Below are positions 29,061 to 47,176 of a DNA stretch of 55,305 nucleotides, one piece after another. The first letter of the stretch is position 1; each line of letters opens with the position of its first letter. The notes beneath the pieces were generated by a model. That model saw only the letters and a list, made by a program, of their open reading frames with translations. It had not been told where the DNA came from and did not search any database. Location of the stretch: NCBI GenBank assembly GCA_019246665.1, contig JAFAQA010000016.1, positions 1 through 55,305 on the forward strand, written 5' to 3'. The stretch comes from Hyphomicrobiales bacterium. Lineage in GTDB: Bacteria > Pseudomonadota > Alphaproteobacteria > Rhizobiales > Beijerinckiaceae. Made by a program: the position numbers and the translations under genes.

Positions 29061-30152
29061 ATGAAGAGAAAAAAATCTTGTCTCATCGCAGGCGGTGCGG
29101 GATTTGTCGGATCGAATCTCTGCGATGCCCTCCTTGCAATGGGATTCGAGGTTGTTTGCGTCGACAACTATCGCACCGGTCGCACCAAGAACATTGATCA
29201 CCTTAAACGAGAGACACGGTTTTCCTTTGTCGAAGCCGACATCATTGAACCCCTGCCCACATCACTTTGGCGTCATCGAGTCGATTGGGTGTTCAATCTC
29301 GCCTGCGCGGCATCCCCACCTCATTACCAATCGGACCCTGAACACACGCTGCTCACGAGTGTCATGGGAACGCGAAACCTCCTCGCCTACGCTGAACAGG
29401 TGCGAGCGCGTTTTCTACTTGCTTCGACAAGCGAAATCTACGGCGACCCGCAGATTCACCCCCAGGCCGAAAGCTATTGGGGATATGTGAATCCCACCGG
29501 GCCACGCGCTTGCTATGATGAAGGCAAGCGCGCTGCTGAAACTCTGGCCTTCGATTACGGCAGAGCGAAGCGCGGCGAGGTGCGCGTCGCGCGCATCTTC
29601 AACACATACGGCCCACGGATGCGCGCCGATGATGGGCGCGTTGTCTCGAATGTGGTGACGCAAGCGCTCGCGGGCGATGACATCACGATCTATGGCGCGG
29701 GCACGCAGACCCGATCGTTTTGCTATGTGAGAGACCTTGTGGAGGGCTTGATCCGACTGATGGCCTATGAGGGACCCTATGGAGGTGCTGTCAATCTTGG
29801 AAACCCGGCCGAGATCACCATCCACGATCTCGTCGATCACGTGCTGCGGCTCACCTCCTCGGAATCGCGTGTCGCGCGTCGCCCCCTCCCCATCGATGAT
29901 CCGCAAAGGCGCTGCCCTGACATCTCACTGGCCAAACGCCTGTTGAACTGGGCGCCGCAAGTCAAACTAGACGAGGGTTTGCGTCGGACGATCACCTATT
30001 TTGCCGAGCAGGCTGCTGCCGCCGCCTCATTCCCGGCCGGATCGCATCGCCGAATTCCCGTTCGAAAAAACTCACGCCAGCCTTCGATGCGCCTTGCGAA
30101 GATGAAAGACACGTCCATCCCACACTTGGAACGGTCGCTCACCAACTCGTAA
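29061..30152 (+). CDS. NAD-dependent epimerase/dehydratase (UDP-glucuronate decarboxylase-like)
   Basis: GGAGFVGSNLCDALL, FNLACAASPPHYQSDPEHT, TSEIYGDPQIHPQAESYWGYVNPTGPRACYDEGKRAAE. Confidence 0.9.
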   Translation: MKRKKSCLIAGGAGFVGSNLCDALLAMGFEVVCVDNYRTGRTKNIDHLKRETRFSFVEADIIEPLPTSLWRHRVDWVFNLACAASPPHYQSDPEHTLLTSVMGTRNLLAYAEQVRARFLLASTSEIYGDPQIHPQAESYWGYVNPTGPRACYDEGKRAAETLAFDYGRAKRGEVRVARIFNTYGPRMRADDGRVVSNVVTQALAGDDITIYGAGTQTRSFCYVRDLVEGLIRLMAYEGPYGGAVNLGNPAEITIHDLVDHVLRLTSSESRVARRPLPIDDPQRRCPDISLAKRLLNWAPQVKLDEGLRRTITYFAEQAAAAASFPAGSHRRIPVRKNSRQPSMRLAKMKDTSIPHLERSLTNS

Positions 30153-31004
30153 AGGCTCGAGACGGTTGAGGCACGCGAGATTCTCGACGTCACGGGCATC
30201 CGCGCCGGGGTCGGAGCGATAGGAGAAATTCAAGATCAACAGATCTCCACCCGGCTTCAGCAGGTGCTCCGACTCTTCCAGGTAGAGGCGGGGAAGGTTA
30301 GGATCAGCCTGCACGATATAGGGGAATGAATCCACCGCGAAGATGCAATCGAAACTCGCCGGCGTGAAGGGCGGAAGGCGTGCGCCTCGGCACAAGTGGA
30401 AGCTCACATTCTGGTGGCCGGCGCAGCGCCGGCGTGCGAGGTCAAGCATCCCTGCGGAGACATCGACGCCATCGATGCGGCCGGCGCGCGAAGCGAGCGC
30501 AAGCTCGAACCTCCCGATCCCACACCCGATGTCCAAGAGCACGCGATCATGCCCGACAAGATCGAGAGAGCTCATGAACTCCACGACCTCGGAAGTTGCC
30601 TCCTCGAGGAGATCGCGTCGACCCAAGCTGTAAAGCGCGACGCTTCCCTCCGGTGAAATCGACACAGCGCGATCGAAAGCGGCTGCGATGTGCCGGACGG
30701 CCGCTTCGGGGTTTTCATGCTGCGCCGGCTCATGCGTCAGCATCGCGGCTACGTCTCGAACCGTTTGCCAGGCGTCGGGCGAGCTTGAGATAAGGGCATT
30801 GAGCTCATCGATGCGATGCGCTGTCGAAGGATCGCCATCTTCTACGTGCCGCGAGAGGTGCATGTCGAGAGCCGTCGTCAGTTCTTCGGCATTGCTTGCC
30901 GCCATGGAAAGCTGCATCAGCGCCACCCCTGCCGGCATTGCGCCGGCGCAATAAGCGCACAGGAGCTGCTCGAGAGCCAAAGGCAAGCGACTCGAATCAG
31001 GCAT
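30072..31004 (-). CDS. Class I SAM-dependent methyltransferase
   Basis: VLLDIGCGIGRFELALASRAGRIDGVDVSAGMLDLARRR. Confidence 0.87.
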   Translation of the reverse strand: MPDSSRLPLALEQLLCAYCAGAMPAGVALMQLSMAASNAEELTTALDMHLSRHVEDGDPSTAHRIDELNALISSSPDAWQTVRDVAAMLTHEPAQHENPEAAVRHIAAAFDRAVSISPEGSVALYSLGRRDLLEEATSEVVEFMSSLDLVGHDRVLLDIGCGIGRFELALASRAGRIDGVDVSAGMLDLARRRCAGHQNVSFHLCRGARLPPFTPASFDCIFAVDSFPYIVQADPNLPRLYLEESEHLLKPGGDLLILNFSYRSDPGADARDVENLACLNRLEPLRVGERPFQVWDGRVFHLRKAHRRLA

Positions 31005-31995
31005 CGATGAGCACCCTCTCCCAAACGCGGTGATGATTCCACCGGTCAACGGCGCCCCAACCGTATTTGTAGGCCTCCCGCCCTCGCAGGAAGTGGAATT
31101 CGCTCACGCCTTCCTCGATCGCGTCAGCAATGGCTTGGCCGATGAGAATTGCGCCCGGACTCGCGTCAGCAAAAGCAGTGTCGAAGCCGCCGAGATACGC
31201 GTAGGCGCGCCCCCGATCGAGAAAACCGTAATACGCGCCCACCGGCCGGCGATCGAGGGCAAGGACATAGCATCTCGCAAGGCCGCCCGCGGCAAGTCGC
31301 GGCAACGCTTTCTCGTGGAGATTTTGCACTCGCGGATCGTCGAGCACGCCGGCCTGTTCGCGTTCGCGCCACCGTGCCCGGTGCAAAGCAAAGAGCACGT
31401 CGAGAAAGTATTGGCTGTCCTCCTCACAACGGAAGACACGGATTTCGCCGAGACCTGCCGCGATCACCCGCGCCCGGCGCAATTGTCGCCGACGACGCGC
31501 GGGCACGCATCCCTCGAGATCACGGCCACCACGCAAATGAATGACCGGACAGGCCTCCTGCATTGCGAGAATTTCGCAACAAGATCGGGGCAGCCTGAGA
31601 TGGCGCGCCGAAGCACCGGGCGGCATGTCCTCGAAGCTCCAGTTCAGCCACCGTGCTTCACACATTTTATCGGCGACGGCCTGCGGCGCTTCGGGACATT
31701 GCGGATCTACGAGTACATCGAGGTAATCGCTGAGCGAGATGCCGATGGGCAAAAGACGCGGCCTGCCTTCAGTCTCTTCGAGATAGAAGGGGAAGAGCGC
31801 TTTCATCTTTCCGCCTGCGTAGGCGACGCCGCAAAGCAATTGTCCAGGGGCGAACGCCTCCCACCAGCTCAACAGCCAGGCGGGAGATTGGAAGGGCGTC
31901 GCAGACGGGCAGCGCCTCCACAGCTCCCACCATTGTGGGGCCAGCGCCGCGAGGGCGGGCCAATCGACAACCAAATTCGTCGACAGCTCCCGCAT
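30997..31995 (-). CDS. GNAT/FemAB-like acetyltransferase (CelD/BcsL-like)
   Basis: ATPFQSPAWLLSWWEAF...RAYAYLGGFDTAFADASPGAILIGQAIADAIEEGVSEFHFLRGREAYKYGWG. Confidence 0.85.
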   Translation of the reverse strand: MRELSTNLVVDWPALAALAPQWWELWRRCPSATPFQSPAWLLSWWEAFAPGQLLCGVAYAGGKMKALFPFYLEETEGRPRLLPIGISLSDYLDVLVDPQCPEAPQAVADKMCEARWLNWSFEDMPPGASARHLRLPRSCCEILAMQEACPVIHLRGGRDLEGCVPARRRRQLRRARVIAAGLGEIRVFRCEEDSQYFLDVLFALHRARWREREQAGVLDDPRVQNLHEKALPRLAAGGLARCYVLALDRRPVGAYYGFLDRGRAYAYLGGFDTAFADASPGAILIGQAIADAIEEGVSEFHFLRGREAYKYGWGAVDRWNHHRVWERVLIDA

Positions 31996-32000
31996 CGGCT

Positions 32001-33047
32001 TCACTCCGCGGCAGCCCGATGAAGAGCAAGATCGCGATAGCGCTCAAGGTATGCGGCACACATCGCCTGCGAGGGGAAACGCGCTCTTGCCTCGCTGCGG
32101 CACAGATCCGGGTCGATTTCGTCGGCGATCAGGATCGCTTCGGCCATCTCCGCGGCATCCTCGACAAGGAAACCGGTGCGCCCATGTGAGATGATCTCGG
32201 AAAGCGCGCCTCGTCGGAAGGCGATGACGGGGGTTCCGCACGCCATCGCCTCCATGGCGACGAGCGAGCTCGTCTCCTCGGCGAGGCTCGGCAGCAAAAG
32301 GCAGCTTGCGCTCGCGAGAAAGCGGCGCTTGCGGGCAAAGTCGAGCGCGCCAATGTAGCGGCAACCGGAGCCGAGTTGAGGCTCGATCCGTGCCTCGAAA
32401 TATTGCTGGTGCGCCTTGTAAGGAAAGACCTTGCCCGCGATGAGGAGGGGGACCTCGGCGCTGCGAGCCGCCTCGATTGCAACATGAACACCTTTTTCCG
32501 GACAGATGCGGCCAAGAAAAAGCGCGAAATTTCGCCTTGCATGCCGGTATGAAAGCGCGTCCACATCCACGCCGTTGACGATCGGAGGCAGAAGGCGAAT
32601 GCCCTCAGGCGCCGCGCGAGCCTGGCTCGTCGACACACAATTCATCCATAGACCGGGCCGCGTATATCGAAGGGAATCCTCTGGATACCAGGCAATCGGA
32701 AGATGCAGGGTGACGAGCGTCGCGCCGTCCTGCGGGCAATAAGCGTGAAAATCGATGCCGTGCAGATGCACGAGGTCCACGTTGAAGCGACGCCTGATTT
32801 CCTCGATAGCCTCTCGATAAAGCACCCAAAAGCGCGACCTCACATGCCGGTCAATCGTGCCGACTTCCTTTGGCATCCGCCAATGCGTCCCGGCGACTAT
32901 CGAGTCCTCGCTCGCCAGCACGATCGAGCGGTGGCCGCCTTTCATCAGCGCGGTGTCGAGCGCCGTGAGCACCTGCTCCGCGCCTCCGACCGCATTTGGG
33001 CCTACGCCGGCGAATGGGTAAGCAACGTTGAGGACCGTCAATGACAT
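32001..33047 (-). CDS. Glycosyltransferase family 4
   Basis: FLGRICPEKGVHVAIEAARSAEVPLLIAGK...LLLPSLAEETSSLVAMEAMACGTPVIAFRRGALSEII. Confidence 0.92.
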   Translation of the reverse strand: MSLTVLNVAYPFAGVGPNAVGGAEQVLTALDTALMKGGHRSIVLASEDSIVAGTHWRMPKEVGTIDRHVRSRFWVLYREAIEEIRRRFNVDLVHLHGIDFHAYCPQDGATLVTLHLPIAWYPEDSLRYTRPGLWMNCVSTSQARAAPEGIRLLPPIVNGVDVDALSYRHARRNFALFLGRICPEKGVHVAIEAARSAEVPLLIAGKVFPYKAHQQYFEARIEPQLGSGCRYIGALDFARKRRFLASASCLLLPSLAEETSSLVAMEAMACGTPVIAFRRGALSEIISHGRTGFLVEDAAEMAEAILIADEIDPDLCRSEARARFPSQAMCAAYLERYRDLALHRAAAE

Positions 33048-33070
33048 CGTTTCAAGCCCGAACTCAATGG

Positions 33071-34000
33071 TCACTTCGCCATCGAAAGCGCCGGCGCGAG
33101 GGTGCCTTTCGCGCAGCATGCGTAACGCCTGATCATGGCGGCGCAGAACTCGGCGAACTCGTGCTTGTCGAGCGGGGCGCTGGTGTGATGAGGCGCGATG
33201 CCACGATGTTCCGGAGTGAAGCAGAATGTCACGGTCACGTTGAAATCGGCGAGCGCCTCCATCTGCCGGTCAAACCAGGCGATGGCATTGGGGCGAAAGC
33301 TATCCGCCCAGGATAACCCCGTTCGCAGATACGTCACGCCGAGCCGCTTCATCCAGGCGACCGCGTCATCGAGGCGTTGATCCTCGAAATGAAACCATTG
33401 GCAGAGGCCCATCTGCGGCGTGAAATCGTTAAAGCGCTCAAGCGCGGGTTTCGGGGTCCCGTCGTCGCGCAGAAGGCCCATGGCGAAGTGCCGATAGTAG
33501 GAAGAGCCCTCCGCCTCGCGATGCCGCGTCGTCGCCTGCCAGTTCCTGGGGAGATCATAAAGGCTATACCAATGAATGCGCGGTGTGCGGCCGATGAGAA
33601 GCTCCGCCGTTCGTTGCAGCCCCCACAGTTGCACCTCGTCGGCGCCGAAGGTCGACACGCCGACCTCGCTTACCCAGATCGGAAGCCTCGTTACCGCCCT
33701 GATTTCATCGAGCTTCGCGGGCCATTCATGGATTTGCCAAAGGTTCCAATCAAGCGGAAATCCGTGAACTGCCACGGCCTCGACATGATCGAGCACGCCT
33801 TGGCCCTGCATATTCATCACGAACTGCGCGTCGATCGGCGAGATGCCGCCAAGGACCTTCGGCAGGCTCGCATTCTCTGCCGTGATCGCATCAGCAGCGC
33901 AAATTGCCATCTCGGCAAAGCGCCTCCAATCCGGGTCGATCTCAGGGTCCCAATGGGATTTGTTGTTAGGCTCGTTCCAGATCATCGCAGCTTCGATCAT
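33071..34000 (-). CDS. Glycoside hydrolase-like TIM-barrel protein (beta-xylosidase-like), permuted strand order
   Basis: NEP motif (AMIWNEPNNKSHWD) near the N-terminus, then LPIWVSEVGVS, IHWYSLYDL; barrel-start-like GLCQWFHFED...YLRTGLSWADSFRP...VTVTFCFTPEH at the C-terminus. Confidence 0.8.
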   Translation of the reverse strand: MIEAAMIWNEPNNKSHWDPEIDPDWRRFAEMAICAADAITAENASLPKVLGGISPIDAQFVMNMQGQGVLDHVEAVAVHGFPLDWNLWQIHEWPAKLDEIRAVTRLPIWVSEVGVSTFGADEVQLWGLQRTAELLIGRTPRIHWYSLYDLPRNWQATTRHREAEGSSYYRHFAMGLLRDDGTPKPALERFNDFTPQMGLCQWFHFEDQRLDDAVAWMKRLGVTYLRTGLSWADSFRPNAIAWFDRQMEALADFNVTVTFCFTPEHRGIAPHHTSAPLDKHEFAEFCAAMIRRYACCAKGTLAPALSMAK

Positions 34001-34755
34001 GGCCTTGAACCCTTCGCCGGATAAACCGCGCCTTCCCCGCCCGGTGCCTTTGCGGCGCGGCAGATATAGACCTCCTCCTCCGGTCGGGAGACGATCTCGA
34101 AGCCCGAGCTGCGGAGCATCGCTTCGACGCAAGCGCGATTTGGAATCCACCAATTGGTCGGGTCCCCGGCATATCGGTCCTCGACAAAATGAAGCTTCGG
34201 AAAGTCGGCCCTTTCGAAAGGCGAAACGTCCCAGAACTGATAATCCTGAGCGAGACGATCGGCATCCGCGCTTCCCCTTTGCATGGACTGAAAAATCAGC
34301 ATGTCGTCCGCCACATGCTCGCGGATGAGATCGAGCGCGAGGAGCGGATGGCGAAGGTGATAGAGGACTCCCATGAACAGCACCACGTCGAAGCGTTGGC
34401 CGAGAGCACCCACATCGTAGACGGAAAGCTGCTCAAAGGTGATGTCGAGATCGGCGACGGTCGCCGCGAATCGTGCCTGTTCGAGGTATTCGGCATCACT
34501 GTCGATGCCGAGCACATGCGCCGCGCCCCTGCGCTTCATTTGAATGGAGTAGAAGCCACCGTTGCAGCCGATGTCGAGCACACTTTTTCCCGAGAGATCA
34601 GCCGGAATGGCATCGGCAAATTTGTTCCATTTGACGGCGGGATAGTCGCCGAGAAAATGGTCGGGTGCGGTGACGACGCCGCCGAGCTCGATGTTGTGGA
34701 ACCACGGTCCGAGCGCCTGCGCACGTTTGCGGATTTCTTCGGCGGAATATGGCAT
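33997..34755 (-). CDS. SAM-dependent methyltransferase (CmoB-like fold)
   Basis: SVLDIGCNGGFYSIQMKRRGAAHVLGIDSD...DVVLFMGVLYHLRHPLLALDLI. Confidence 0.88.
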   Translation of the reverse strand: MPYSAEEIRKRAQALGPWFHNIELGGVVTAPDHFLGDYPAVKWNKFADAIPADLSGKSVLDIGCNGGFYSIQMKRRGAAHVLGIDSDAEYLEQARFAATVADLDITFEQLSVYDVGALGQRFDVVLFMGVLYHLRHPLLALDLIREHVADDMLIFQSMQRGSADADRLAQDYQFWDVSPFERADFPKLHFVEDRYAGDPTNWWIPNRACVEAMLRSSGFEIVSRPEEEVYICRAAKAPGGEGAVYPAKGSRP

Positions 34756-34766
34756 CGCCGTCTCTC

Positions 34767-35570
34767 CTACTGCGCGACCATCGGAGCGAAGGTCTTGCCG
34801 AGTGGCTCGGTAATTGAGAGCCTGACGCGGTCAGCTTCGCGATCAGGTCGCCCCCCTCGGGCGAGAAGCTTGAGCGCCGCCTCATATCCGTTCACCGTTC
34901 CCACATCGACATAGGCCTCGCCTGCCCGAACGCCAACGGCTTCTCCGCCTTCCGCGAGATAGGCGTTGATCAACGTGCCGATATATTCATCGCGCCGCTC
35001 CGCCCGCTTCCAGAGGGTGTGAAGCTCGTGGAAGACGCGTGCCGGCATCTTGAACGCTCCCCAGACCCAGCGCGAAGCATCACCGGGCCGCTTGACCTCG
35101 ATCGCCCTCACGCGATCGTCATCGTGGAGCAAAACCGCGTCGAAAAGCTCCGGCCGCGCGACCGGAAAAAGCAGGAAGGAAAGCTTGTCCTCCGGAAGCG
35201 CGGCGAAACCTTCCTTCGGAAACCAAATCGTGTCCGGAAGTCCGACCAGAATGGGTTCCTCGCGCATGAGAGGCGAGGCGCGAAAGATCGCGTCGCACAG
35301 GCCGAGCGGCGCCGGCTGCACCACATAAGCGACCATCGCATGCTCGTAACCTGCGCCGTAATAGCTCACGATGTCCGATTTGCCGGCGCCGATAACGAAA
35401 GCAAGTTTGTCCACGCCCGCAAGGATCATGCGTTCGACGAGATATTCGCTGACTGCGCAAGGGCGTTCGCCCTCTCCCCTTCGGCAGCTGCCGACAGGGA
35501 GAAGCTCCTTCGAGAAGGCGAGCGGCTGAATGCGCGTGCCGCGCCCGGCGGCCGGAACAATTCCCCACAT
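34767..35570 (-). CDS. Sugar-phosphate nucleotidyltransferase (RmlA/GalU-like)
   Basis: MWGIVPAAGRGTRIQPLAFSKELLPVG; GLCDAIFRASPLM; DVGTVNGYEAALKLL. Confidence 0.9.
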   Translation of the reverse strand: MWGIVPAAGRGTRIQPLAFSKELLPVGSCRRGEGERPCAVSEYLVERMILAGVDKLAFVIGAGKSDIVSYYGAGYEHAMVAYVVQPAPLGLCDAIFRASPLMREEPILVGLPDTIWFPKEGFAALPEDKLSFLLFPVARPELFDAVLLHDDDRVRAIEVKRPGDASRWVWGAFKMPARVFHELHTLWKRAERRDEYIGTLINAYLAEGGEAVGVRAGEAYVDVGTVNGYEAALKLLARGGRPDREADRVRLSITEPLGKTFAPMVAQ

Positions 35571-35573
35571 CTC

Positions 35574-36683
35574 TCAAGCCTCCGCTGCGGCTTCGCGCGT
35601 TTCGATACGGTTCCGAGATGACTTCGCCTCGGCGACCATGGCCTCGAACTGGCCGGCACGATGCGCCGAGGTGTGCTCGGCAAGCACGCGCTCGCGCGCA
35701 TGAGCGCCGATGCGAGCGAGCTCCTCCTGAGGTAGATCGAGTGCGGCGATCACGTCGTCGCAAGCCTGGCCGACCAGGATCTCACGCCCGGGCTCGAAGA
35801 AGGAATCGAGCCCATCCCACCAATCACTGAGAATTGCCGTCCCGCAGGCTGCCGCCTCGAAGAGCCGGCCGGACGGGCACCATCCCATTCTGGCCATGTC
35901 GCTGCGCGTCACGTTCAATGTCAGACGCGAGGAAGCGTAAAAGGATGCATGCTGCGCGGGCGGAAGATGGCGCACGAAGAAGATGTTCTTCGTCCAGGGG
36001 AAGCTTTGCGGATATTGTGCTCCTGCAAGCACGAAGCGAAGCTCCGGCCGGTAGCTGGCCGGCTCGATGAAGAGTCGGTTCAGCGCGGCTTGGCGGTCGG
36101 CCGCATAAGTCCCGATGTAGGAGAAGTCGGCGCGATAGGATTCAGCTGAACCCGCGGGGCGATGAATCTGCGGATCGACATGTCCATAGAGCGGGATGGG
36201 ATCGCGGGCACCCGCCAACGAGGTCAGTCCCTCAAGCGCGACACCGCCTGTGAAGCTCAGCACCAAATCGTAATCCGCAAGCCCCCGCGGGCCGATATAG
36301 GTCGTCGATTCACCGCGCCGCAACCGCTCCAGCGTCACGGGCGTGTCGAGGTCGTAAAAGACGCGCAACGCCCCGGGTGCACCGAGCACAAGCTCCGTCG
36401 CCGCCGTTCCGTCCGGGCAATAGGAGGTGACCATCGCCACTTCGGCTTCGGCCACCTCTCGGCGCGCGCAAGCTTCAATATCCGCCCAATCCTCGTAGAG
36501 AATGAGTTCGCCACCCGAAAGACGATCGAGATCCCGGTTCTGCGCATAGTAGGTCGTGTTGCGCTCGAAGAAGGTAACGTGCCAGCCCCGCTTAGCGAGA
36601 GCATGCTGAAGGCCACGCCACAAGGTCGCGTGTCCGTTTGCCCAGGAGGAGCTGATGGTCAGTCCGAATACAACGAGCTTCAC
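35574..36683 (-). CDS. CgeB-family glycosyltransferase (paralog 1)
   Basis: GTG start after GAGG: VKLVVFGLTISSSWANGHATLWRGL; C-term SGRLFEAAACGTAILSDWWDGLDSFFEPGREILV. Confidence 0.87.
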   Translation of the reverse strand: MKLVVFGLTISSSWANGHATLWRGLQHALAKRGWHVTFFERNTTYYAQNRDLDRLSGGELILYEDWADIEACARREVAEAEVAMVTSYCPDGTAATELVLGAPGALRVFYDLDTPVTLERLRRGESTTYIGPRGLADYDLVLSFTGGVALEGLTSLAGARDPIPLYGHVDPQIHRPAGSAESYRADFSYIGTYAADRQAALNRLFIEPASYRPELRFVLAGAQYPQSFPWTKNIFFVRHLPPAQHASFYASSRLTLNVTRSDMARMGWCPSGRLFEAAACGTAILSDWWDGLDSFFEPGREILVGQACDDVIAALDLPQEELARIGAHARERVLAEHTSAHRAGQFEAMVAEAKSSRNRIETREAAAEA

Positions 36684-36708
36684 TGGGCAATTTCCTCGCT
36701 GCCGCGCA

Positions 36709-37305
36709 TCAGGCCACCACCTCGTTGACGGCGAGGACGCGCATGCCTTGTTGATCGAGCGAGATTTTGCTGATCGAGGCTGGAGCAATCTCGATTCTTG
36801 GCCAATCGTCGAGCGATAGTTCGAGAGCGTGTAGAAGTGCGGCCCTGATCACTTCGGCATGGCTGACGAGAGCAGCGGCCCCACTTGGCATCTCGGACGC
36901 AAGCGAAGCCATATGCGCCACGACCCGTTCCTGGATGTCGCGCATGCTCTCTCCGCCGGGCGTTCGTGCGTCGGCGCGCCGCTCATTCCAGTGGCGCCAC
37001 GAGGGGTCTTGCGACAAAGTTCCAAAGCTCTTGCCGGTCCAAGAACCGAAATCGACTTCATCCAATGCAGAGGCAGTTTCGACCGACGAAAGGCGGCAGG
37101 CCTGCGCAACCGCCTCGGCAGTTTCGCTGGCGCGCGCACGCGGGCTCGCCTGCATCCGCGCAAGGCATTCGCGCTTGAGCCTGAGGCCGAGCTTCCGCGC
37201 CTGCTCCCTTCCCTTCTCGCCAAGGCTCGCACCCGGCAATCGTCCGGTGAGGCATTCGCCCAAGCCCTCATGCGCCGCATGGCGGATCAGAAAGAACATG
37301 GTCAT
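36709..37305 (-). CDS. Histidine phosphatase family protein (phosphoglycerate mutase-like)
   Basis: [47 protein letters not shown]. Confidence 0.92.
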
Positions 37306-38399
37306 GAGAGGCGGCTGGGTGGATCCTCGCCCGAGATGAATTGAAGCGTGCGCTCGCGCGCATCAGCGTCCGTGAACTGCCGGGGTGGCGACTTCATGAA
37401 GTAGCTCGATGGACCGATCAACGCTCCGCCGATGCCGCGGTCGAGCGCGAGCTTGGCGCAGCGGACCGCATCGATGACGATGCCTGCGGAATTTGGCGAG
37501 TCCCAGACTTCGAGCTTCACTTCGGCGGTCAACCGCACGCCGCCGAAAGTAGTGCCTTCCATTCGGATGTGACAGAATTTCCGATCGGTGAGCCAAGGCA
37601 CAAAGTCGCTCGGTCCGACATGAACATTCTCTGGAGCAAGCGGAATATCAAGCTGACTCATCACGGCTTGCGTCTTGGAAATTTTCTTCGATTCGAGTCG
37701 CGACCGCTCGAGCATATTGCGGAAATCGGTGTTCCCGCCGAAGTTGAGCTGATACGTCCTGTCGAGCCGCACGCCACGCTCGCGGAAAAGATTTGTGAGC
37801 ACGCGATGGACGATGGTGGCGCCAACCTGGCTCTTGATGTCGTCCCCTATGAGGGGCAGTTTTCCCCTCTCGAAGCGCTCGCGCCAGCAGGGCCTCGAGG
37901 CGATGAAAACCGGAACGCAATTGATGAAAGCGCAACCGCCGCGCAGCGCCTGCTCCGCGTAGAATTCGACAGCTTGCTCGGAGCCGACTGGAAGGTAGCA
38001 CACGACGATTTCCGTTCCGGTGCGCTGCAGCGTCTCTGCCACGTCACATTCGGGCTCTTCCGATTCAGGTATTTCCTCGCGCAGATAAATTCCCAGTCCG
38101 TCGAGGGTGCGTCCCCGTTCGACCGTGACACCGGTGTTTGCAACCTCGGCAAAACGGTGCGTGTTGTTCGGCGGCGCGTAAATGGCTTGCGCGACATCGA
38201 AGCCGACCTTCGAGGCCGCGATGTCGAAAGCCGAAGAGATTTGGACGTCGTCGACGTGGTAGCCACCGAGAATGGGGTTGGTGAGTCCAGGAATCGGCTC
38301 GTTCGATGCCGCTCCTCGGTAATAGGTGAGCCCCTGAACGAAAGAAGAAGCGCAATTTCCGACGCCGACGAGGCCGACGCGCAGCTTTCTCGAGCCCAA
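37302..38399 (-). CDS. Inositol-3-phosphate synthase (Ino1-like)
   Basis: [69 protein letters not shown]; proposed TTG start at 38399 after GGGAGGAG; the ORF extends to 38468. Confidence 0.93.
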
Positions 38400-38439: not shown

Positions 38440-38464
38440 AACAGAGCGGAACAGGAAAAGTTCC
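38440..38464 (-). promoter_or_regulatory. Putative EcfG promoter, GGAAC-N16-TGTT
   Basis: Minus strand GGAACTTTTCCTGTTCCGCTCTGTT upstream of inositol-3-phosphate synthase. Confidence 0.5.
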
Positions 38465-38519
38465 TCAAAAGGGCCGGCGTGGACGTCGCGCGAGGAAGAG
38501 CCGGCGCGGAAGAGAGCCA

Positions 38520-38735
38520 TCACTCCCGCCGAAAGGCACCCGCGGTCTCACGCGGCGCATCCGAGCGCCGCACTTCGATCGTGATCTCGTCGCCGGCGCG
38601 CAAATCATTCGTGGCGCCGAGAACCGCGGCCTCAAACGCGCCTTCCTCCGAGGTGTACTCGGCACCTCGCTCACCATTGCGCGTGAACGCCCAGCTCTCG
38701 CCCGCGCCGCCGACTTTGTAGACGATCATCATCAA
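38520..38735 (-). CDS. Small hypothetical protein (possibly DUF2188-like)
   Basis: 71 aa MMMIVYKVGGAGESWAFTRNGERGAEYTSEEGAFEAAVLGATNDLRAGDEITIEV; consensus-matching EcfG-like promoter upstream. Confidence 0.55.
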   Translation of the reverse strand: MMMIVYKVGGAGESWAFTRNGERGAEYTSEEGAFEAAVLGATNDLRAGDEITIEVRRSDAPRETAGAFRRE

Positions 38736-38774
38736 TCACCGCTCGAAACACGCGTGCCCAATCGGTAATTCCTG

Positions 38775-38799
38775 AACGCGCCTTGGCAGCTTGCGTTCC
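38775..38799 (-). promoter_or_regulatory. Putative EcfG promoter, GGAAC-N16-CGTT
   Basis: Minus strand GGAACGCAAGCTGCCAAGGCGCGTT, about 40 nt upstream of the 71-aa ORF. Confidence 0.65.
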
Positions 38800-39142
38800 A
38801 GCCGCCTTGGCCCGGCTCGATTCCGACAACCGCAAGCGCAAAATCCTGGGCCCGAGGCTCGGCTTGTCCATAGATAAGCACGGCATGCTGCTGATGATGC
38901 TGAGGCGAGAGCGTGGGCGACGAGGACCCCAAGAGATCACGTGAGAAGCCTTTCGCCGCCGGCAAAGCTTATTGGACGAGAGCGTTCAGGGTTGAGGGTC
39001 GTCTCGTTCACCTCTCGCCGAGCACCTGTAAGCTTTACCGAGAAGGCGAATGCGGAGGGGTTTTTCGCGCGATCATCCGCTTGCGGCCTGATCACCGCTT
39101 GATGCTTAAGGAAGATCGACGGCCCGATGCAGCGGCGACTGA

Positions 39143-40312
39143 TTACCCGCTCATCCCGGCCGCGATCTTCGTTTGGGGCTGCCGCTCTTCGCGGGGCTGC
39201 GGCGCGGAGGCCACGCGAACAATTCGGGCCCCTTCCTTGCGGCGCTCCATGGCTTCAAGCAGATATCCCTCGAGCTCGCGCGCGCGGTGCTGTGAGCTGT
39301 GGGCCGCGAGAATGCGTTCGCGCGCTGCCTCGGCGATGGCACGCCGCTCACGATCCGTCATGCGTCGGAGAAGACGGAGCATGTCGATCGTCGAATCGGC
39401 AAGGAGAATTTCTTCTCCTGGACGGAAGAGCGTCTCGAGCCCTGGCCAGTGATCGGAGATGATCGGGCTCGCGCACGCCGCGGCCTCGAAGAGACGCACA
39501 CTTGGACTGAAGCCGGCGCGCACCATCGAGACGCGGGTCACATTGAGAGCGAAGCGGCACCGCGCGTAGAATTCAGGGTGATCATGGGGCGCCACATGTG
39601 CCAAGCGCGTGACGTTCGCGGGCCAATCCAAGCCGTCCGGAAATTGCGCTCCGGCAACTACGAAACGAAGCTCAGGGGCTTGGCGCGCCGGCTCGAGCAG
39701 AAGCCGCTCCAAGGCAGGTTGCCGGTCGGAGCTGTAGGTCCCAAGATAACCGAGGTCGAAATGCGGGGTGAGCTGAAGCGGCGGGTAGAGCGCCTCGTCG
39801 ACGGTGCAATAGAGCACGCGAGCCGCCGGTGCTCCGTGGCGCCTCTCCAAGACACGAAGCACGGATCCGCCGGTGAAGGACAAATACGGATCGTATCCGG
39901 GAATGATCGCTGGCGAGAGGTATTCGTAGTCCCCCTCCTCAAGTTTCGCGAGTGTCACCGGGGTATCGATGTCGTAAAATGCCGTGATCCCTTTGCGCAG
40001 AGACTGCACCCATTCGCCGATCGCGACACCATTCGCGACATAAGATCCGATGATCACGGCATCGGCAGTTGCGAGAGCGAGTCGGTGACGCTCGAGATCA
40101 CGCAAATCCCTGTAGAAGTGAAGCGCACAGAAATCGGGGCACGGCAGATCGCGATGATCCGCATACCAGGGCTGGTCGCGCTCCAAGAAACAGACATCGT
40201 GTCCACGCCTCGTCAAGGCACGCAGCAAAGCCCGATAGGTCGTCGCATGCCCGTTGCCCCATGATGAGGAGAGGCTGAGCCCAATCACTACGATTCGCAT
40301 CGGCCTCATCAC
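39143..40312 (-). CDS. CgeB-family glycosyltransferase (paralog 2)
   Basis: MRIVVIGLSLSSSWGNGHATTYRALLRALTRRGHDVCFLE (M5); SVRLFEAAACASPIISDHWPGLETLFRPGEEILLA. Confidence 0.87.
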   Translation of the reverse strand: MMRPMRIVVIGLSLSSSWGNGHATTYRALLRALTRRGHDVCFLERDQPWYADHRDLPCPDFCALHFYRDLRDLERHRLALATADAVIIGSYVANGVAIGEWVQSLRKGITAFYDIDTPVTLAKLEEGDYEYLSPAIIPGYDPYLSFTGGSVLRVLERRHGAPAARVLYCTVDEALYPPLQLTPHFDLGYLGTYSSDRQPALERLLLEPARQAPELRFVVAGAQFPDGLDWPANVTRLAHVAPHDHPEFYARCRFALNVTRVSMVRAGFSPSVRLFEAAACASPIISDHWPGLETLFRPGEEILLADSTIDMLRLLRRMTDRERRAIAEAARERILAAHSSQHRARELEGYLLEAMERRKEGARIVRVASAPQPREERQPQTKIAAGMSG

Positions 40313-41403
40313 GCCGCGTTCCTTTCAGATATCATTCGTGCCTTCGCCTTGAGGATCGCGTCGACCTCGGCGCCGCGCCGCTCATAAGTATGCTCGCGCT
40401 TGATGCGTCGCAGAGCAGCTTCGCCGATCCGACGCGCCGCCGGTTCGGTCAATGACCGAAGAATCTCGACCACATCCTGTCCGTCGCGCGCCACGAGCAC
40501 TTCGCTGCCGGGCGCAAGAAAGAGCTCGATCCCTTCCCAGGCATCCGTGATGAGACAGGCGGCGCTTCCAGCGGCTTCGAAAACACGGGTCGCAGGCGAG
40601 TAGCCGATATCCGCCATACTGTCGCGCGCGACGTTCAACACCGCGAGCGGCGTCGAGTTGAACGCGTTATGGTCGCGCGTATAGACATGCCCGATCGAGC
40701 CCATGTTGGAAGGCAGCGCCTTCGTGTCCCAACCGTTTCCACCGATGAGAAACCTGCGCTCGGGCATGCGTGCGGCAGGCTCGAGGAAGAAATGCTCGAC
40801 GCGAGCTTCGCGATCGGGAAGCCGATTGCCGAGAAAAGCGAGGTCGCAGCCGAAACGCGGATCAGCGGGAACCGGGTGGTGGGTCGTCGGATCAAGCGCA
40901 TTGTAGATCGGCACACAACCTAGCGCGCCGAGACCGCGATAAGCCTCTACCACAGGAGGTCCGCCGCCATAGGTGAAAACGAGGTCGAGCGAGGACAATG
41001 CCCGGCGGACCGGGTGACCACAATCGCGCTGCATTTGCGCGAGGGTCGCGGGCGCGTCGACGTCCCAGAAGATTCGGATCGCGTCAGGGTGCGCCTCTTC
41101 AAGCACGCCCGCGAGCAGCTCCTCGTCAAAGACGCCGACGCCGCTTGCCTTCACGACCACATCAGCTTTGGCGGCCTCCGCGACCACCTTCCGCATTTCT
41201 TCCGCCGTCGCCGGATAGACGCGCACTGTCGCCCAATCGGGTGCTTCCATATCCTTGTGCTTTTGCCTGTCGAACGCATCGGGCTCGTAGAAGGTGATGT
41301 CATGACCCCGCCGCGCGAGATCAGCGAGCAGGCCTCGATAATAGGTCGCAGCTCCATTCCAATAGGAGGAAAGAAGGCTCGAGCCGTAAAATGCGATCTT
41401 CAC
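40309..41403 (-). CDS. CgeB-family glycosyltransferase (paralog 3)
   Basis: MKIAFYGSSLLSSYWNGAATYYRGLLADLARRGHDITFYEPD; ATRVFEAAGSAACLITDAWEGIELFLAPGSEVLVA. Confidence 0.87.
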   Translation of the reverse strand: MKIAFYGSSLLSSYWNGAATYYRGLLADLARRGHDITFYEPDAFDRQKHKDMEAPDWATVRVYPATAEEMRKVVAEAAKADVVVKASGVGVFDEELLAGVLEEAHPDAIRIFWDVDAPATLAQMQRDCGHPVRRALSSLDLVFTYGGGPPVVEAYRGLGALGCVPIYNALDPTTHHPVPADPRFGCDLAFLGNRLPDREARVEHFFLEPAARMPERRFLIGGNGWDTKALPSNMGSIGHVYTRDHNAFNSTPLAVLNVARDSMADIGYSPATRVFEAAGSAACLITDAWEGIELFLAPGSEVLVARDGQDVVEILRSLTEPAARRIGEAALRRIKREHTYERRGAEVDAILKAKARMISERNAA

Positions 41404-42512
41404 CGAGCAACCTCCAACCTTGTCTCGGATCTGAGGCGGGAAATGATCGCGATGAGCTCCTGCGCGCGATGCGCGCAGCTATGGCGCTCCCGAATGGTCA
41501 TGAGCCCGTTCGCGACCAAGGAAGCGGCAAGGTCACGATCCTGCGCGACCGCTCGCATATGCGCGCACATCTCGGCCTCTGTCCTCGCCAGGAGGTAATC
41601 CTCCCCCACGCGGAAGAGACCTTCCGTATCGTGCCAAGGCGCCGAGAGCAGCGGAATGCCGCAGGCAAGCGCTTCGAAGACGCGAATAGTCGGGATGCCC
41701 GGCAACGCCTCGACGTAGAAGTGGCGCGGCACATGCACGGTCGCGATATGACGCGAGAAGGCACCCGGGGCGAGCACATTGGGCAACCAGTCGCGATAAC
41801 GCGCCCCGTGACGCGAGAGTGTTTCAAGCGCGGCTTGCGGGTAGCGCACACCATGAATGTCGAGGGAAAGTCCCGCCCTCCTCGCAGGACGCAGCAGGAA
41901 GGCTGCGAGCTCCTCGGTCCGCTCGCCGTCTCCCCAATTGCCAATCCACACGAGGCCCTCGCGTTCCTCGTCCTCGACCGGAGGATGAAACAAGCTCGTG
42001 TCGGCGGCTTCATGCCAGACGAAGACGCGATCTCCCCACCCCCAACGCCGATAAATGCGAGCCAAGGCCTCACCGAAGGCGAGCACGCCGTCATAACCGT
42101 CGAGATCGAAATGGCGGATGGCCTCGGGATCGCTGACCGCCCGATGGTGCGTATCATGAAAGAGAAGCGTGAATCGTGCTCCCCTCTTTCGCAGCCGCCC
42201 GATCGCGGCGACGAGCCAAGGCTCGTTCCATTCATGGACGATAACGAGATCCTGATCCGCTAGAACCGCCGCGAGATCGAGATCCGCCCCATATTGGTTC
42301 GAGCAAAGTTCCGGGTAGGCCGCGAGATAAGGGGCCAAACCTCCCTGGCCATGGTCTGCCAGCAAATGGGCAAGGCTCCAGGCTGACGTGGGTTCGAAAG
42401 CCGCGACCTCATTTCCCTTTCGTATGAGAGCGCGCAGGACGCCGCGCAAAAAATGCGCGTTACCGTGGTTCCAACATGACAAGAGCGAGTGAGCGAAATA
42501 AGTGACCCTCAC
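41400..42512 (-). CDS. CgeB-like glycosyltransferase (paralog 4)
   Basis: VRVTYFAHSLLSCWNHGNAHFLRGVLRAL (GTG start overlapping upstream TGA); TIRVFEALACGIPLLSAPWHDTEGLFRVGEDYLLA. Confidence 0.85.
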   Translation of the reverse strand: MRVTYFAHSLLSCWNHGNAHFLRGVLRALIRKGNEVAAFEPTSAWSLAHLLADHGQGGLAPYLAAYPELCSNQYGADLDLAAVLADQDLVIVHEWNEPWLVAAIGRLRKRGARFTLLFHDTHHRAVSDPEAIRHFDLDGYDGVLAFGEALARIYRRWGWGDRVFVWHEAADTSLFHPPVEDEEREGLVWIGNWGDGERTEELAAFLLRPARRAGLSLDIHGVRYPQAALETLSRHGARYRDWLPNVLAPGAFSRHIATVHVPRHFYVEALPGIPTIRVFEALACGIPLLSAPWHDTEGLFRVGEDYLLARTEAEMCAHMRAVAQDRDLAASLVANGLMTIRERHSCAHRAQELIAIISRLRSETRLEVAR

Positions 42513-43693
42513 GCAGCTGCTCCCGCGACTTGCGTGATCTTTCCGCAATCCTTGCGCAAAACCGAGGCTCTAGACGGACGGCGCTGATTTTTCTGGATCA
42601 GCTCGGCGTAGAGGCTTGCCATGGCACGCACCATCCGCGCGAGGCTGAAGCTCTCCGCGCGCTGCCGAGCGGCCTCACCGAGGCCGCTGCGCAGAGCCGG
42701 CTCACGCAGCAACCGCTCCGCCGCCTGGGCCAGTGAGCGGTCGTCGCGAGGCGGCACGAAGAGCGCCGCCCCATGCCAAAGCTCGCGGAAGGTCGGAATA
42801 TCCGACAGGAGGAGCGCGCAACCCGCCTGCGCCGCCTCCAGCACTGAAAGCCCAAAGGGTTCATAGACGGAGGTGGATACGAAGATCGGACCCTCGGCAA
42901 GCCGCGCTCGCACCTCCTCGCTTGAAAGCCCCCCGAGAAGCCGTAGGTTGCGGCACTCCACTCTGGCACTGTTCGGCCCTTGAATGGGCCCGGCGGCGAG
43001 CACCGAAACCTCGAGACGTGCCGCTGCCCGATCGAGCGTGCAGATATCCTTGCCTTCGTCCCAAAGACGTCCCGCCGTGAACAACAGCGCCTCGCCTGCG
43101 CCATCCGCGCGCGTAAGCGACGCGCTTTTTGATCGTCCGTTGTGGACCACCCGCGGCCGCTCGGAGAGGCCGTAGCTCGCAACGACTGACGCTCCGAAGG
43201 CGGCACTCGGAACCACAAGGCGATCGGACGCGGCGAGATGACGCCCCACGAGGTCGGCGCGCCAGCGCCAATCCGGTCGCACCGGCTCACCCTTCACTGC
43301 AGCCCACCAGGTGGCAAGGCAGGAATGATGAACCGCAACGACAGGCACGGAAAAATGGGCCGCGCTCGCCAGTGGCGAACCGTTCAACTGAACGAGATTC
43401 GCCCCGATCTCTCGCGCCATTTTTGCGAGGTCTTTTGCGGATTTCTCCACCATCGTCTCGTTGTCTGAAAGCCAGTCAAGCGGAAGCGCTGTCTCGACGA
43501 GCTCGAGTCCCGTGATGCTGCGCGCTTCGCGTTTTTGCGCATCGGTGGGCGCCGGGCCTAGTACGGCGAGGGTCACGAAAACGTTCTGTTCGATGAGGCC
43601 ACGAGCCAAGTCCAACGCGTAGCTCCATACACCGCCTACCGCGTCCGTGGTCATCAAGAGATGGCAGGGCTCTGCATTCACCTCGGCAGACAT
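42509..43693 (-). CDS. Glycosyltransferase family 4
   Basis: MTTDAVGGVWSYALDLARGL; LFTAGRLWDEGKDICTLDRAAARL; FVSTSVYEPFGLSVLEAAQAGCALLLSDIPTFRELW. Confidence 0.92.
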   Translation of the reverse strand: MSAEVNAEPCHLLMTTDAVGGVWSYALDLARGLIEQNVFVTLAVLGPAPTDAQKREARSITGLELVETALPLDWLSDNETMVEKSAKDLAKMAREIGANLVQLNGSPLASAAHFSVPVVAVHHSCLATWWAAVKGEPVRPDWRWRADLVGRHLAASDRLVVPSAAFGASVVASYGLSERPRVVHNGRSKSASLTRADGAGEALLFTAGRLWDEGKDICTLDRAAARLEVSVLAAGPIQGPNSARVECRNLRLLGGLSSEEVRARLAEGPIFVSTSVYEPFGLSVLEAAQAGCALLLSDIPTFRELWHGAALFVPPRDDRSLAQAAERLLREPALRSGLGEAARQRAESFSLARMVRAMASLYAELIQKNQRRPSRASVLRKDCGKITQVAGAAA

Positions 43694-44970
43694 TGGCATT
43701 CCAGCTCGCTCAAGGGCAGAGGCCGTTCGTCCTGAATGTCGCTGAGTTGGTGAAACTGGCTGAGGTAATGGTCGTGAGCTCGCTCCCATGCCTTGCCGTC
43801 CGGCATTCCCCAAAGGCGCCGATAGTCGGGTGAGCTCGGATAAGGGTAGAGAGGTACCGGATCATTCGCCCAAACCTTGTGAGCCTCGAGCTTGGCGCGC
43901 CATTCGCGGATCAATTCAGGGTCGTCCTCCGCCATCTTGATGAGATTTGCCTGCACGAACGGAACGCGCCCGCGGGCATACACGAGACGCTCAGCAAGCT
44001 CGTCGGTCGAAAGGCGGCAATTCTTGTCGAGATGCGCTCTTCCTTCCACGGTGAGACTTTCGACGCCGGCCTCGATCGAGACGCATCCCGCTCGCCCCAA
44101 AAGATCGAGCATCTCGGGCTTCCACAAATCGATGCGGGTCTGAACGCCGAAACGCACCGGGCGCTCAACGAGCGCTTCGAGGAGCGGTTTCTGAGGCAGG
44201 AATATTTCATCGACGAAGTAGATGTAGGTGGCGCCGGCCTCGACGAGCGCGTCGATTTCCACGAGCAAGGGAGCGAGCTCGCGTCGTCGGTATTTGTCGC
44301 GATAGTCGATCTTGGCGCAAAAGCTGCAGGAATAAGGGCAACCCCGCGAGGCTTCGACCTCAACGCCCGGTCCGTCGGGCGCCGCCTCGAAGCGATGATG
44401 GTGATGACGATGCCGGGCGATCCATTCTTTGGGCCAGCGGATGGGAGGCAGGTCGACGAACCGGGTCGCCGTCGGCTCGCCGGTGACCCGAATAAAGTCT
44501 CCCTCCTGGAACGCGATGGAACCAACCTCACGGAGCGCCTTTCCTTCCGCGAGCTTCGCGATGACCTCTTCACATTCTCCGCGCACCACAACATCGACGC
44601 CAAGCTTCGCCAACGTCGTCTGCGGCGTGACCGAACCATGGGGCCCGACGGCGAGCGAGCGCCCTCCTCGCCTGCCGAGTGCCATCACGAACTCGCGCGG
44701 GATTCGCAGCTCAGGCGGCGCGCATCGCCAGAAGAGATAGGATGGCGCGGTCGTGATGACCGTCATTTGCGGTGCGAACTCAGCAACTTCGTCCGCGAGC
44801 TCCGCATTCGATTTTTCAAAAAGATGGCCATCGAAAATCTCAACTTCATGGCCGCCAGTCTCCAGAAGCACGCGAGAGGCACCAAGCTCAAGAGGAAGAT
44901 GTGGCTCACGACAACCGAAATAGATGGAATTGTCGAAACGCCATGCCGGATTGACGAGCGCGACCCTCAT
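43678..44970 (-). CDS. B12-binding domain-containing radical SAM protein
   Basis: N-term MRVALVNPAWRFDNSIYFGC...GHEVEIFDGHL; CX3CX2C cluster motif ASRGCPYSCSFCAKIDYRDKYR. Confidence 0.92.
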   Translation of the reverse strand: MRVALVNPAWRFDNSIYFGCREPHLPLELGASRVLLETGGHEVEIFDGHLFEKSNAELADEVAEFAPQMTVITTAPSYLFWRCAPPELRIPREFVMALGRRGGRSLAVGPHGSVTPQTTLAKLGVDVVVRGECEEVIAKLAEGKALREVGSIAFQEGDFIRVTGEPTATRFVDLPPIRWPKEWIARHRHHHHRFEAAPDGPGVEVEASRGCPYSCSFCAKIDYRDKYRRRELAPLLVEIDALVEAGATYIYFVDEIFLPQKPLLEALVERPVRFGVQTRIDLWKPEMLDLLGRAGCVSIEAGVESLTVEGRAHLDKNCRLSTDELAERLVYARGRVPFVQANLIKMAEDDPELIREWRAKLEAHKVWANDPVPLYPYPSSPDYRRLWGMPDGKAWERAHDHYLSQFHQLSDIQDERPLPLSELECQCLPR

Positions 44971-46070
44971 CCCGCCACCTCCGATCGCTCGACTGAGAAA
45001 ACACGCGGGGACGTCAGCACATTTTTTTGGGAACGAAGCCAGTTGAAGAGTTTCGTTATACCCTCGCGCCATGGTGTCGGCGCGCCGAGGGAGAGGTCGT
45101 GTTCGACGCGCCGGCGATCAGAGACGAAATAGCGCTGATCGCCCGGTCTCCAATCCTGGTACCGGGTCTCCGCGTCGAGACCGAGCTCATTTGTGATGAA
45201 CGCGATCAGGCCGCGAAGGCTCACGGAATTCGCTGCACCTCCACCAAGGTTGAAAGCTTTGCCTTTCACCGAGCCGATCCGGCGCCAGGCCGACAAGTAG
45301 GCGTCGACCGCATCCTCGACGTAAAGAATATCGCGCACCTGCCGACCATCGCCGAAAATGGTGATCGGCTCCTCGTTCAGTGCCTGAATGAGGAAATGCG
45401 CGACCCAACCTTGATCCTCATTTCCCATTTGACGAGGTCCATAGATGCAGCTCATACGCAGCACCGCCGTCGGCATGTCGAAGCTTCTGGCGTAATCGAG
45501 GACGTATTGATCAGCCCCGCCCTTCGAGCAGCCATAAGGCGTATGGAAATCAAGCGGTCGCAGCTCGGAAATGCCGTGAGCGCGCAATTCGACATCTCTG
45601 GGCCGATAGGCGTCGCGATCGCACACAAGGGGAATATCAGCGAGCTCGCCATACACCTTGTTGGTTGAAGCGAAGATGAAGGGAATGGGCCTTTGCTGGC
45701 GTCTCACCTCTTCGAGCAAGCCGAGCGTGCCCGAGAGATTGACGCTGAAATCATCACGCGGATCCGCGAAGCTCGTCGTCACCGCGACCTGAGCCGCGAA
45801 ATGAAAGATGGCACCGGCTTCCGCAACGACTTGGCGAAGCGCCATAGTATCGCGGACGTCCGATGAGATCAGGCTTATCCGCTCAGGGTGGCGTTCGGCG
45901 AGCCAATTTGCATTGAGCTCGGCTCCCTTTCGCGCCATTGAATCCAGGACGAGGACGTGATGGCCCTCGCGCGCCAACCGATCGGCAAGGTTGGACCCGA
46001 TGAATCCTGCGCCGCCGGTGACCAACACCGGCCTGAGCCCGACAACGGCCGGAGCCGCCTCGGCAGTCAT
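44967..46070 (-). CDS. NAD-dependent epimerase/dehydratase (CDP-paratose 2-epimerase-like)
   Basis: VTGGAGFIGSNLADRL; FASTNKVYGELADIPL; TPYGCSKGGADQYVLDYARSF; IYGPRQMGNEDQGWVAHFLI. Confidence 0.88.
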   Translation of the reverse strand: MTAEAAPAVVGLRPVLVTGGAGFIGSNLADRLAREGHHVLVLDSMARKGAELNANWLAERHPERISLISSDVRDTMALRQVVAEAGAIFHFAAQVAVTTSFADPRDDFSVNLSGTLGLLEEVRRQQRPIPFIFASTNKVYGELADIPLVCDRDAYRPRDVELRAHGISELRPLDFHTPYGCSKGGADQYVLDYARSFDMPTAVLRMSCIYGPRQMGNEDQGWVAHFLIQALNEEPITIFGDGRQVRDILYVEDAVDAYLSAWRRIGSVKGKAFNLGGGAANSVSLRGLIAFITNELGLDAETRYQDWRPGDQRYFVSDRRRVEHDLSLGAPTPWREGITKLFNWLRSQKNVLTSPRVFSVERSEVAG

Positions 46071-47176
46071 GCCACAAGCCCTCGAACTTCGAGCTCTCGC
46101 CGGGCCTCCGCGATCCGGTCATGCGCCTGCTGGCCGGCAACCCATTCGCTGAGCTTTGTCAGCCCATCGGCGAAATCTCGCCGTGCGGTGAAGCCGAGCT
46201 CTCGCTGCGCTTTCGAAGTGTCCGCGAAGCAATGGCGGATGTCGCCGGTTCTTGCTTTTCCGATAATCTCGGGTCCGATGTCTGGACGATCCATGGCGAC
46301 GGCGAGCGCCTCGGCGATTTCGGCGACGCTTCGATCCCGGCCGCTGCCGATATTGTAGACCTCGCCATTCGCTTTCGGGTTTTCAAGCGCGAGCGCAAAA
46401 GCTTCGGCCACATCCTCCACATGCACGAAATCGCGTCGTTGTCGCCCGTCCTCGAAAAGAAGCGGTGGCTTGTCGTTCGCGAGGCGGGAGGCAAAAATCG
46501 CCAAGACCCCTGTATATGGGTTGGAGAGCGCCTGACCCGGGCCATAAACGTTGAAGAGGCGCAGCGCCACGGCTTCCATCCCATAGGCGGGCGCCACGGC
46601 GAGCGTCATACGCTCCTGCGCGTATTTCGTCAGCGCGTAGACGGAAGCGAGGTTGGGTCGCTTCCATTCGGGTGTGGGGACCGGCCGCAACGGTCGCCCC
46701 AATTGATCGACCGGATCCCACGACAGGCTCACAGCCTGTTTGCGCGTAGCATCCTCGACAAGCTTTCCATCAGCATCCTGATAAAGGCCTTCGCCGTAGA
46801 CGCTCATGGATGAGGCAACCACCACGCGACGTACCGGCTTTTTGGCGAGAGCTTCGAGAAGCGACGCAGTCCCGAGATCGTTCACGGAGACGTAGCGCTC
46901 GATCGCGTACATGCTTTGGCCGACGCCGACTTCAGCGGCGAGATGAATCACGCTGTCAATCCCTGAAAGCGCCTTCTGCAGCTTCTGCGCATCGCGCACA
47001 TCGCCAACGATGAGCTCGACCCCGTCGAGCCGCGCCGATTTTTGGGCGTCGGGCCCATGAACTTGCTCGAGGAGACAATCGAGAACCCGCACCTTATCCG
47101 CCCGGCGCAATAGTGCTTGAGAGAGGTGACGTCCGATGAAACCAGCTCCCCCTGTAATCAATACGTTTTCGCTCAC
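46067..47176 (-). CDS. NAD-dependent epimerase/dehydratase (UDP-glucose 4-epimerase-like)
   Basis: GTG start, VSENVLITGGAGFIGRHLSQALL; VASSMSVYGEG; YALTKYAQERMTLAVAPAYGMEAVALRLFNVYGPGQALSNPYTG. Confidence 0.9.
   Translation of the reverse strand: MSENVLITGGAGFIGRHLSQALLRRADKVRVLDCLLEQVHGPDAQKSARLDGVELIVGDVRDAQKLQKALSGIDSVIHLAAEVGVGQSMYAIERYVSVNDLGTASLLEALAKKPVRRVVVASSMSVYGEGLYQDADGKLVEDATRKQAVSLSWDPVDQLGRPLRPVPTPEWKRPNLASVYALTKYAQERMTLAVAPAYGMEAVALRLFNVYGPGQALSNPYTGVLAIFASRLANDKPPLLFEDGRQRRDFVHVEDVAEAFALALENPKANGEVYNIGSGRDRSVAEIAEALAVAMDRPDIGPEIIGKARTGDIRHCFADTSKAQRELGFTARRDFADGLTKLSEWVAGQQAHDRIAEARRELEVRGLVA

Follow-up and report, generated by a model that had tools for sequence, protein, structure and literature searches.

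A conserved gene cluster with a cobalamin-type radical SAM enzyme and a circularly permuted glycosidase-like barrel, and its possible role in stress-induced synthesis of a soluble oligosaccharide

The stretch of DNA analysed here, referred to as the window, is contig JAFAQA010000016.1 of a Hyphomicrobiales bacterium (Beijerinckiaceae; assembly GCA_019246665.1), positions 1 to 55,305 (55,305 nt). It carries a cluster of epimerase, glycosyltransferase and methyltransferase genes that includes a cobalamin-type radical S-adenosylmethionine (SAM) enzyme and a glycosidase-like barrel of permuted topology.

Two operons and a convergent gene

Sixteen genes, lettered A to P, run from 47218 down to 30072 on the minus strand, and the convergent plus-strand gene Q (28788-30152) makes 17. 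The features are as follows, in gene order.

46067-47218, minus: A, SDR-family nucleoside diphosphate (NDP)-sugar epimerase/dehydratase (Pfam Epimerase 191 bits; PDB matches generic, best 6wjb at 155 bits)
44967-46070, minus: B, NDP-sugar epimerase resembling cytidine diphosphate (CDP)-tyvelose 2-epimerase (PDB 9rl0/1orr 249-257 bits; next family 124)
43678-44970, minus: C, cobalamin-type radical SAM enzyme, TIGR04295 (694 bits, cut-off 400)
42509-43699, minus: D, GT4 glycosyltransferase by Pfam, start uncertain; between C and E in 41/42 complete loci
41400-42512, minus: E, CgeB-like glycosyltransferase, PF13524 (107 bits)
40309-41403, minus: F, CgeB-like glycosyltransferase, PF13524 (122 bits)
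39143-40312, minus: G, CgeB-like glycosyltransferase, PF13524 (146 bits)
38775-38799, minus: EcfG-type promoter match GGAACGCAAGCTGCCAAGGCGCGTT, upstream of the small open reading frame and Ino1; matching position in two relatives
38520-38729, minus: small open reading frame of 69 amino acids between this promoter match and Ino1; conserved in two relatives, no Pfam match
38440-38464, minus: second EcfG-like element GGAACTTTTCCTGTTCCGCTCTGTT (TGTT, one base off consensus), directly before Ino1; conserved in loci L007 and L008
37302-38399, minus: H, inositol-3-phosphate synthase (Ino1), actinobacterial type (PDB 1gr0, 438 bits)
36709-37305, minus: I, histidine phosphatase, branch 1 (147 bits)
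35574-36683, minus: J, CgeB-like glycosyltransferase (134 bits)
34767-35570, minus: K, sugar-1-phosphate nucleotidyltransferase-like, remote to RmlA/GalU
33997-34755, minus: L, TIGR04290 methyltransferase (384 bits, cut-off 300)
33071-34000, minus: M, circularly permuted PslG-like clan GH-A barrel (strands 4-8 then 1-3; E10 and E112 invariant)
32001-33047, minus: N, GT4 glycosyltransferase
30997-32004, minus: O, CelD-like GNAT acyltransferase, PF13480 (116 bits)
30072-31004, minus: P, class I methyltransferase
28788-30152, plus: Q, similar to uridine diphosphate (UDP)-glucuronate decarboxylase, or UDP-xylose synthase (343 bits to 4gll/2b69; next family 156); conserved domain begins at about residue 93
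47432-48478, plus: up_ABC, ABC-transporter membrane-region-like with no ATPase domain, divergent from A

The first-pass annotation of this DNA described about 17 consecutive, coupled minus-strand genes. Its gene content stands: two SDR epimerases, the B12 radical SAM enzyme, two GT4 and four CgeB-like (PF13524) glycosyltransferases, Ino1, the histidine phosphatase, the nucleotidyltransferase, two methyltransferases, the barrel and the CelD/GNAT protein can all be recognised, and the seven stop/start overlaps it named are present in the sequence. On the other hand, there are 16 such genes, and because a 0.7-kb gap (38400-39142) parts operon 1 (A-G, 39143-47218) from operon 2 (H-P, 30072-38399) we read the locus as two operons rather than as a single coupled operon of 17 kb. 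Conservation across relatives led us to revise the starts of H (38399), J (36683), N (33047) and P (about 31004). Q had been left out of the earlier description, and we count it as part of the system since in many other loci it lies directly downstream of G on the same strand.

Conservation and constant partners

A scan of 84,980 species genomes with radical SAM protein C returned 56 loci, distributed over the Alphaproteobacteria, Acidobacteriota, Myxococcota and Deltaproteobacteria, with many of the carriers being soil and plant-associated bacteria. The order A-B-C-D-E-F-G was kept in 41 of the 42 loci that have all seven genes, and A leads operon 1 in nearly all loci, so that the neighbourhood check proposed in the first-pass annotation, anchored on the radical SAM protein, found the genes conserved together across genomes. 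The second block, H-I-(J-K)-L-M, is divergent from the core in Azospirillum and the Acetobacteraceae/Roseomonadaceae, upstream on the same strand in Bradyrhizobium, and downstream in the window genome and Methylobacterium soli; being joined in such different arrangements argues for a functional link between the blocks and not just shared descent of one operon. N-O-P forms a third and rarer block. Six loci have a gene for a PIG-L deacetylase placed between M and N (neither such a gene nor a remnant of one was found there in the window), and the Bradyrhizobium clusters have an extra Metalloenzyme-superfamily gene, annotated as phosphopentomutase, between M and A (L047:6155-7594, L064:16477-17682). 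Plasmid-borne copies occur in Azospirillum, Tistrella and Bradyrhizobium; Bradyrhizobium sp. 195 (locus L064, hit H8) has a TIGR04295 gene on two different plasmids, of which p195_1 is typed as conjugative. In an even sample of the class (385 genomes), TIGR04295 was present in 14, an M-like barrel in 13, and both in 12, for which the hypergeometric chance is about 6e-20 when relatedness is ignored.

We then surveyed partners in 20 core-bearing genomes picked to span the different layouts, several of them incomplete assemblies. The M-type barrel was present in all 20 and the TIGR04290 methyltransferase in 19, making these two the near-constant partners of the core. Ino1 was found in 11/20, with no match anywhere in the assembly for the other nine, which include the isolates Aquibaculum arenosum and Telmatospirillum. 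For this reason inositol synthesis is a lineage-specific input and not the heart of the pathway (inositol may also be taken up from outside), which weakens the earlier view of the product as defined by an inositol link. In the window, H is nearer the Mycobacterium tuberculosis enzyme (1gr0, 438 bits) than the five-membered-cyclitol-phosphate synthase (192 bits), and scores 489 bits against TIGR03450, taken as a mark of the mycothiol pathway, under its cut-off of 638. In Rhodospirillum centenum an inositol-1-phosphate synthase, RC1_0768, is up 4-8 fold late in cyst formation (PMC4340629). We also considered K as an inositol-1-phosphate cytidylyltransferase and set this aside, as no such match was obtained, only the remote similarity to RmlA/GalU.

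As the first-pass annotation had expected, some members do belong to existing NCBI families. C and L exceed by a wide margin the curated cut-offs of TIGR04295 (B12_rSAM_oligo) and TIGR04290 (meth_Rta_06860), both hypothetical equivalogs without a described reaction, although the name of the former already hints at an oligosaccharide context. In the literature searched we found no mention of either family and no described pathway or product, and searches by families and gene combinations returned no characterised homologous cluster.

C carries the cluster motif CxxxCxxC with C211, C215 and C218 invariant. It scores 21.6 bits against Pfam B12-binding, below cut-off, and its AlphaFold model (predicted template modelling score, pTM, 0.88) has TsrM, MgmA, OxsB, AprD4 and CysS as its nearest solved folds. 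Motif and fold together place C among the cobalamin-dependent radical SAM enzymes with a B12-binding-like domain, cobalamin binding being predicted. C shares the two-domain fold and the motif with these five enzymes, but is only about 16-20% identical to them. Judging from the model, its reaction is most likely a C-methylation; an AprD4-type dehydration is possible, and the fold alone does not separate the two.

The circularly permuted barrel

In M, a clan GH-A barrel of PslG-like type has undergone natural circular permutation, so that the chain starts at strand 4. The protein has 309 amino acids, and its N-terminus, MIEAAMIWNEPNNKSHW, corresponds to strand 4 of clan GH-A barrels with the acid/base glutamate, whereas the expected strands 1-3 make up the C-terminal part. 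In its native order M aligns with PslG over its first part alone (E 0.031); when the C-terminal part is rotated to the front the whole barrel aligns, over residues 6-289 (E 3.5e-6), with both catalytic glutamates in place. The order 4-8 then 1-3, in place of the canonical 1-8, is seen in all complete standalone M proteins of the loci, and E10 and E112 are invariant across 27 M sequences. In the AlphaFold model (pTM 0.84, mean pLDDT 82.5) the first barrel strand covers residues 2-8 and the last 254-260. A sequential Foldseek search with this model gave barrels of low TM-score, as expected for a permutant.

Decisive support comes from six records (Tistrella, Telmatospirillum, Aquibaculum and three others) whose epimerase B has an N-terminal barrel, in canonical order, fused to it. 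The native-order M profile matches all six fusions as two swapped pieces, while the rotated profile matches each as one; the Tistrella barrel, for instance, aligns with M in two swapped pieces and with rotated M in one (E 2.6e-37). The radical SAM tree places the B-fused type at three or more separate points, so that lineages have switched between permuted and fused canonical barrels. In one Myxococcota genome (locus L057) the two forms coexist, the permuted barrel as a standalone protein and the canonical-order one within the epimerase B reading frame.

Compared with Pseudomonas PslG (4zn2, 5bx9), M differs in being permuted, in lacking a signal peptide and in having its gene within a biosynthetic operon. 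Glycosidase barrels permuted by nature are known from GH13/GH70, which belong to clan GH-H; M is likewise a naturally permuted glycosidase barrel, but clan GH-A-like and with both topologies within one pathway. A limited literature search turned up no account of permutation in a clan GH-A barrel, which is weak evidence of novelty.

Stress-type promoters and the likely product

The published EcfG promoter consensus is GAAC-N16,17-C/GGTT in Methylobacterium (PMC4814048) and GGAAC-N17-20-GTT in Sphingomonas (PMC6599016). We searched for a strict motif, GGAAC-N16,17-CGTT, within 450 bases upstream of cluster genes and took the expectation from shuffled sequence. Matches were found before A in 7/48 loci (0.18 expected) and before H in 10/30 (0.16 expected), and before internal genes in 3/432. 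When the motif was broadened slightly and the distance set to 300 bases, the figures were 11/48 before A (0.34 expected) and 13/30 before H (0.24 expected), or 24/78 for the operon-leading genes combined against about 0.6 expected; related loci are not independent in these counts, to which several separate genera contribute. In the window, operon 2 has a consensus match at 38799, and this match and the element before Ino1 both recur at corresponding positions in two relatives. The window genome also encodes NepR, the anti-sigma factor of the EcfG system, and genes fitting stress islands are found as neighbours of the cluster (DUF892, PRC-barrel, topoisomerase IB, treZ, Ku/LigD), of which Ku, topoisomerase IB, treZ and PRC-barrel are reminiscent of the published Sphingomonas melonis EcfG regulon. 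Taken at the level of sequence, the cluster is apparently induced by general stress. The plus-strand gene up_ABC (47432-48478) has an EcfG-type match of its own at 47343; we rejected this gene as an exporter, as it lacks an ATPase and is conserved in just two further loci, L007 and L008.

By hydropathy no membrane segment is present in any of A-Q, no multi-transmembrane family recurs near the core across the 56 loci, and no Wzx, Wzy or ligase lies beside the cluster in annotated complete plasmids. The earlier observation that export and polymerisation genes are missing from the cluster is thus borne out, the linked flippase, polymerase or ligase of a Wzx/Wzy capsule or O-antigen locus being absent, and with no membrane-bound cluster protein and no recurrent multi-transmembrane family nearby a soluble cytosolic product is favoured. 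The explanation we prefer, to which we give an even chance, is a general-stress-induced cytosolic pathway for a soluble, non-polymeric, xylose-containing, methylated hetero-oligosaccharide, with inositol included in some lineages. The alphaproteobacterial general stress response would switch the pathway on; UDP-xylose would come from Q and epimerised nucleotide sugars from A and B; as many as four sugars could then be added one after another by D, E, F and G, C would make one carbon-centred change, most likely the C-methylation, L would methylate, and M would trim or transglycosylate the chain. In Ino1-bearing lineages H and I may supply inositol as acceptor or residue, and J, K, N, O and P may be further lineage-specific additions and decorations. 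The product would likely serve as a stress or desiccation protectant. The first-pass annotation had pointed to a soluble, inositol-linked, methylated oligosaccharide; the soluble, methylated part is the likeliest reading, while the inositol does not generalise. To that picture the present analysis adds a UDP-xylose step, the division into two operons, promoter matches of general-stress type, and a permuted barrel whose canonical-order counterpart is fused to B.

Several points weigh against this explanation. The EcfG-type promoters are consensus matches predicted from sequence; seven of those before H belong to a single Bradyrhizobium/Rhodopseudomonas group, most A-led operons (e.g. in Azospirillum) have no match, none was found before A in the window, and the cluster copies outside the Alphaproteobacteria cannot use EcfG. 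The sequence does not reveal which substrates A, B, D-G, J and K act on. Moreover, the window genome has unlinked Wzy_C proteins on other contigs, and unlinked genes may serve to anchor the product on protein or lipid.

Given these Wzy_C proteins, the main rival is a surface product handled elsewhere, that is, a glycan attached to envelope lipid, lipopolysaccharide, flagellin or another protein and exported by unlinked general machinery. Multiple glycosyltransferases with epimerases are typical of surface glycans, and the O-antigen of Bradyrhizobium ORS285 needed an 11-gene sugar-modification cluster 40 kb from the ligase gene (PMC4743980). Nevertheless we consider it unlikely, though by no means negligible, as the surroundings of the core show no recurrent initiating transferase, flippase, polymerase or ligase, membrane segments are absent from all cluster proteins, and M, by starting directly with barrel strand 4, leaves no room for a signal peptide. 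Identity with the bradyrhizose O-antigen cluster itself is also unlikely: no recovered locus comes from the photosynthetic strains named in that paper, from whose text its 11 genes are not matchable to A-Q.

Patchy distribution, plasmid location, a decorating acyltransferase, deacetylase and methyltransferases, and the presence of the aminoglycoside enzyme AprD4 among the fold matches of C would instead suit a specialised metabolite that acts in signalling or antagonism, for example a cyclitol glycoside or a pseudo-oligosaccharide of aminoglycoside-like type. This we regard as improbable, since neither an exporter nor a resistance gene nor a pathway-specific regulator is recurrently linked and the promoters look to be of general-stress type. 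A mycothiol- or glycosylphosphatidylinositol-like glucosaminyl-inositol pathway would share with the cluster Ino1 (nearest the actinobacterial enzyme), a GT4, PIG-L in the six loci and an acyltransferase, the GNAT protein O. However, many extra glycosyltransferases, the radical SAM enzyme and the barrel set the cluster apart, Ino1 is optional, its GT4s match MshA weakly, and no PIG-L adjoins N in the window. MshC was not found: the sole match reached 266 bits against a cut-off of 485 and is probably an ordinary cysteinyl-tRNA synthetase, the same search giving matches in 14/14 controls and exceeding the cut-off in one. With MshC lacking we reject the mycothiol pathway, and hold any such glucosaminyl-inositol route to be very improbable.

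Returning to the stress-induced cytosolic oligosaccharide, we suggest, tentatively and at somewhat less than an even chance, that the cluster represents an undescribed class, in which a cobalamin radical SAM enzyme takes part and the product is finished by a permuted clan GH-A barrel, interchangeable between lineages with a canonical epimerase-fused one. Having both topologies within one pathway makes the system a clean natural experiment for studying circular permutation in an enzyme fold that is among the commonest. If our explanation is true, the two orphan NCBI families TIGR04295 and TIGR04290 would gain their first functional frame, and plant-associated Azospirillum, Bradyrhizobium and Methylobacterium would have a further, undescribed protective metabolite in their general stress response.

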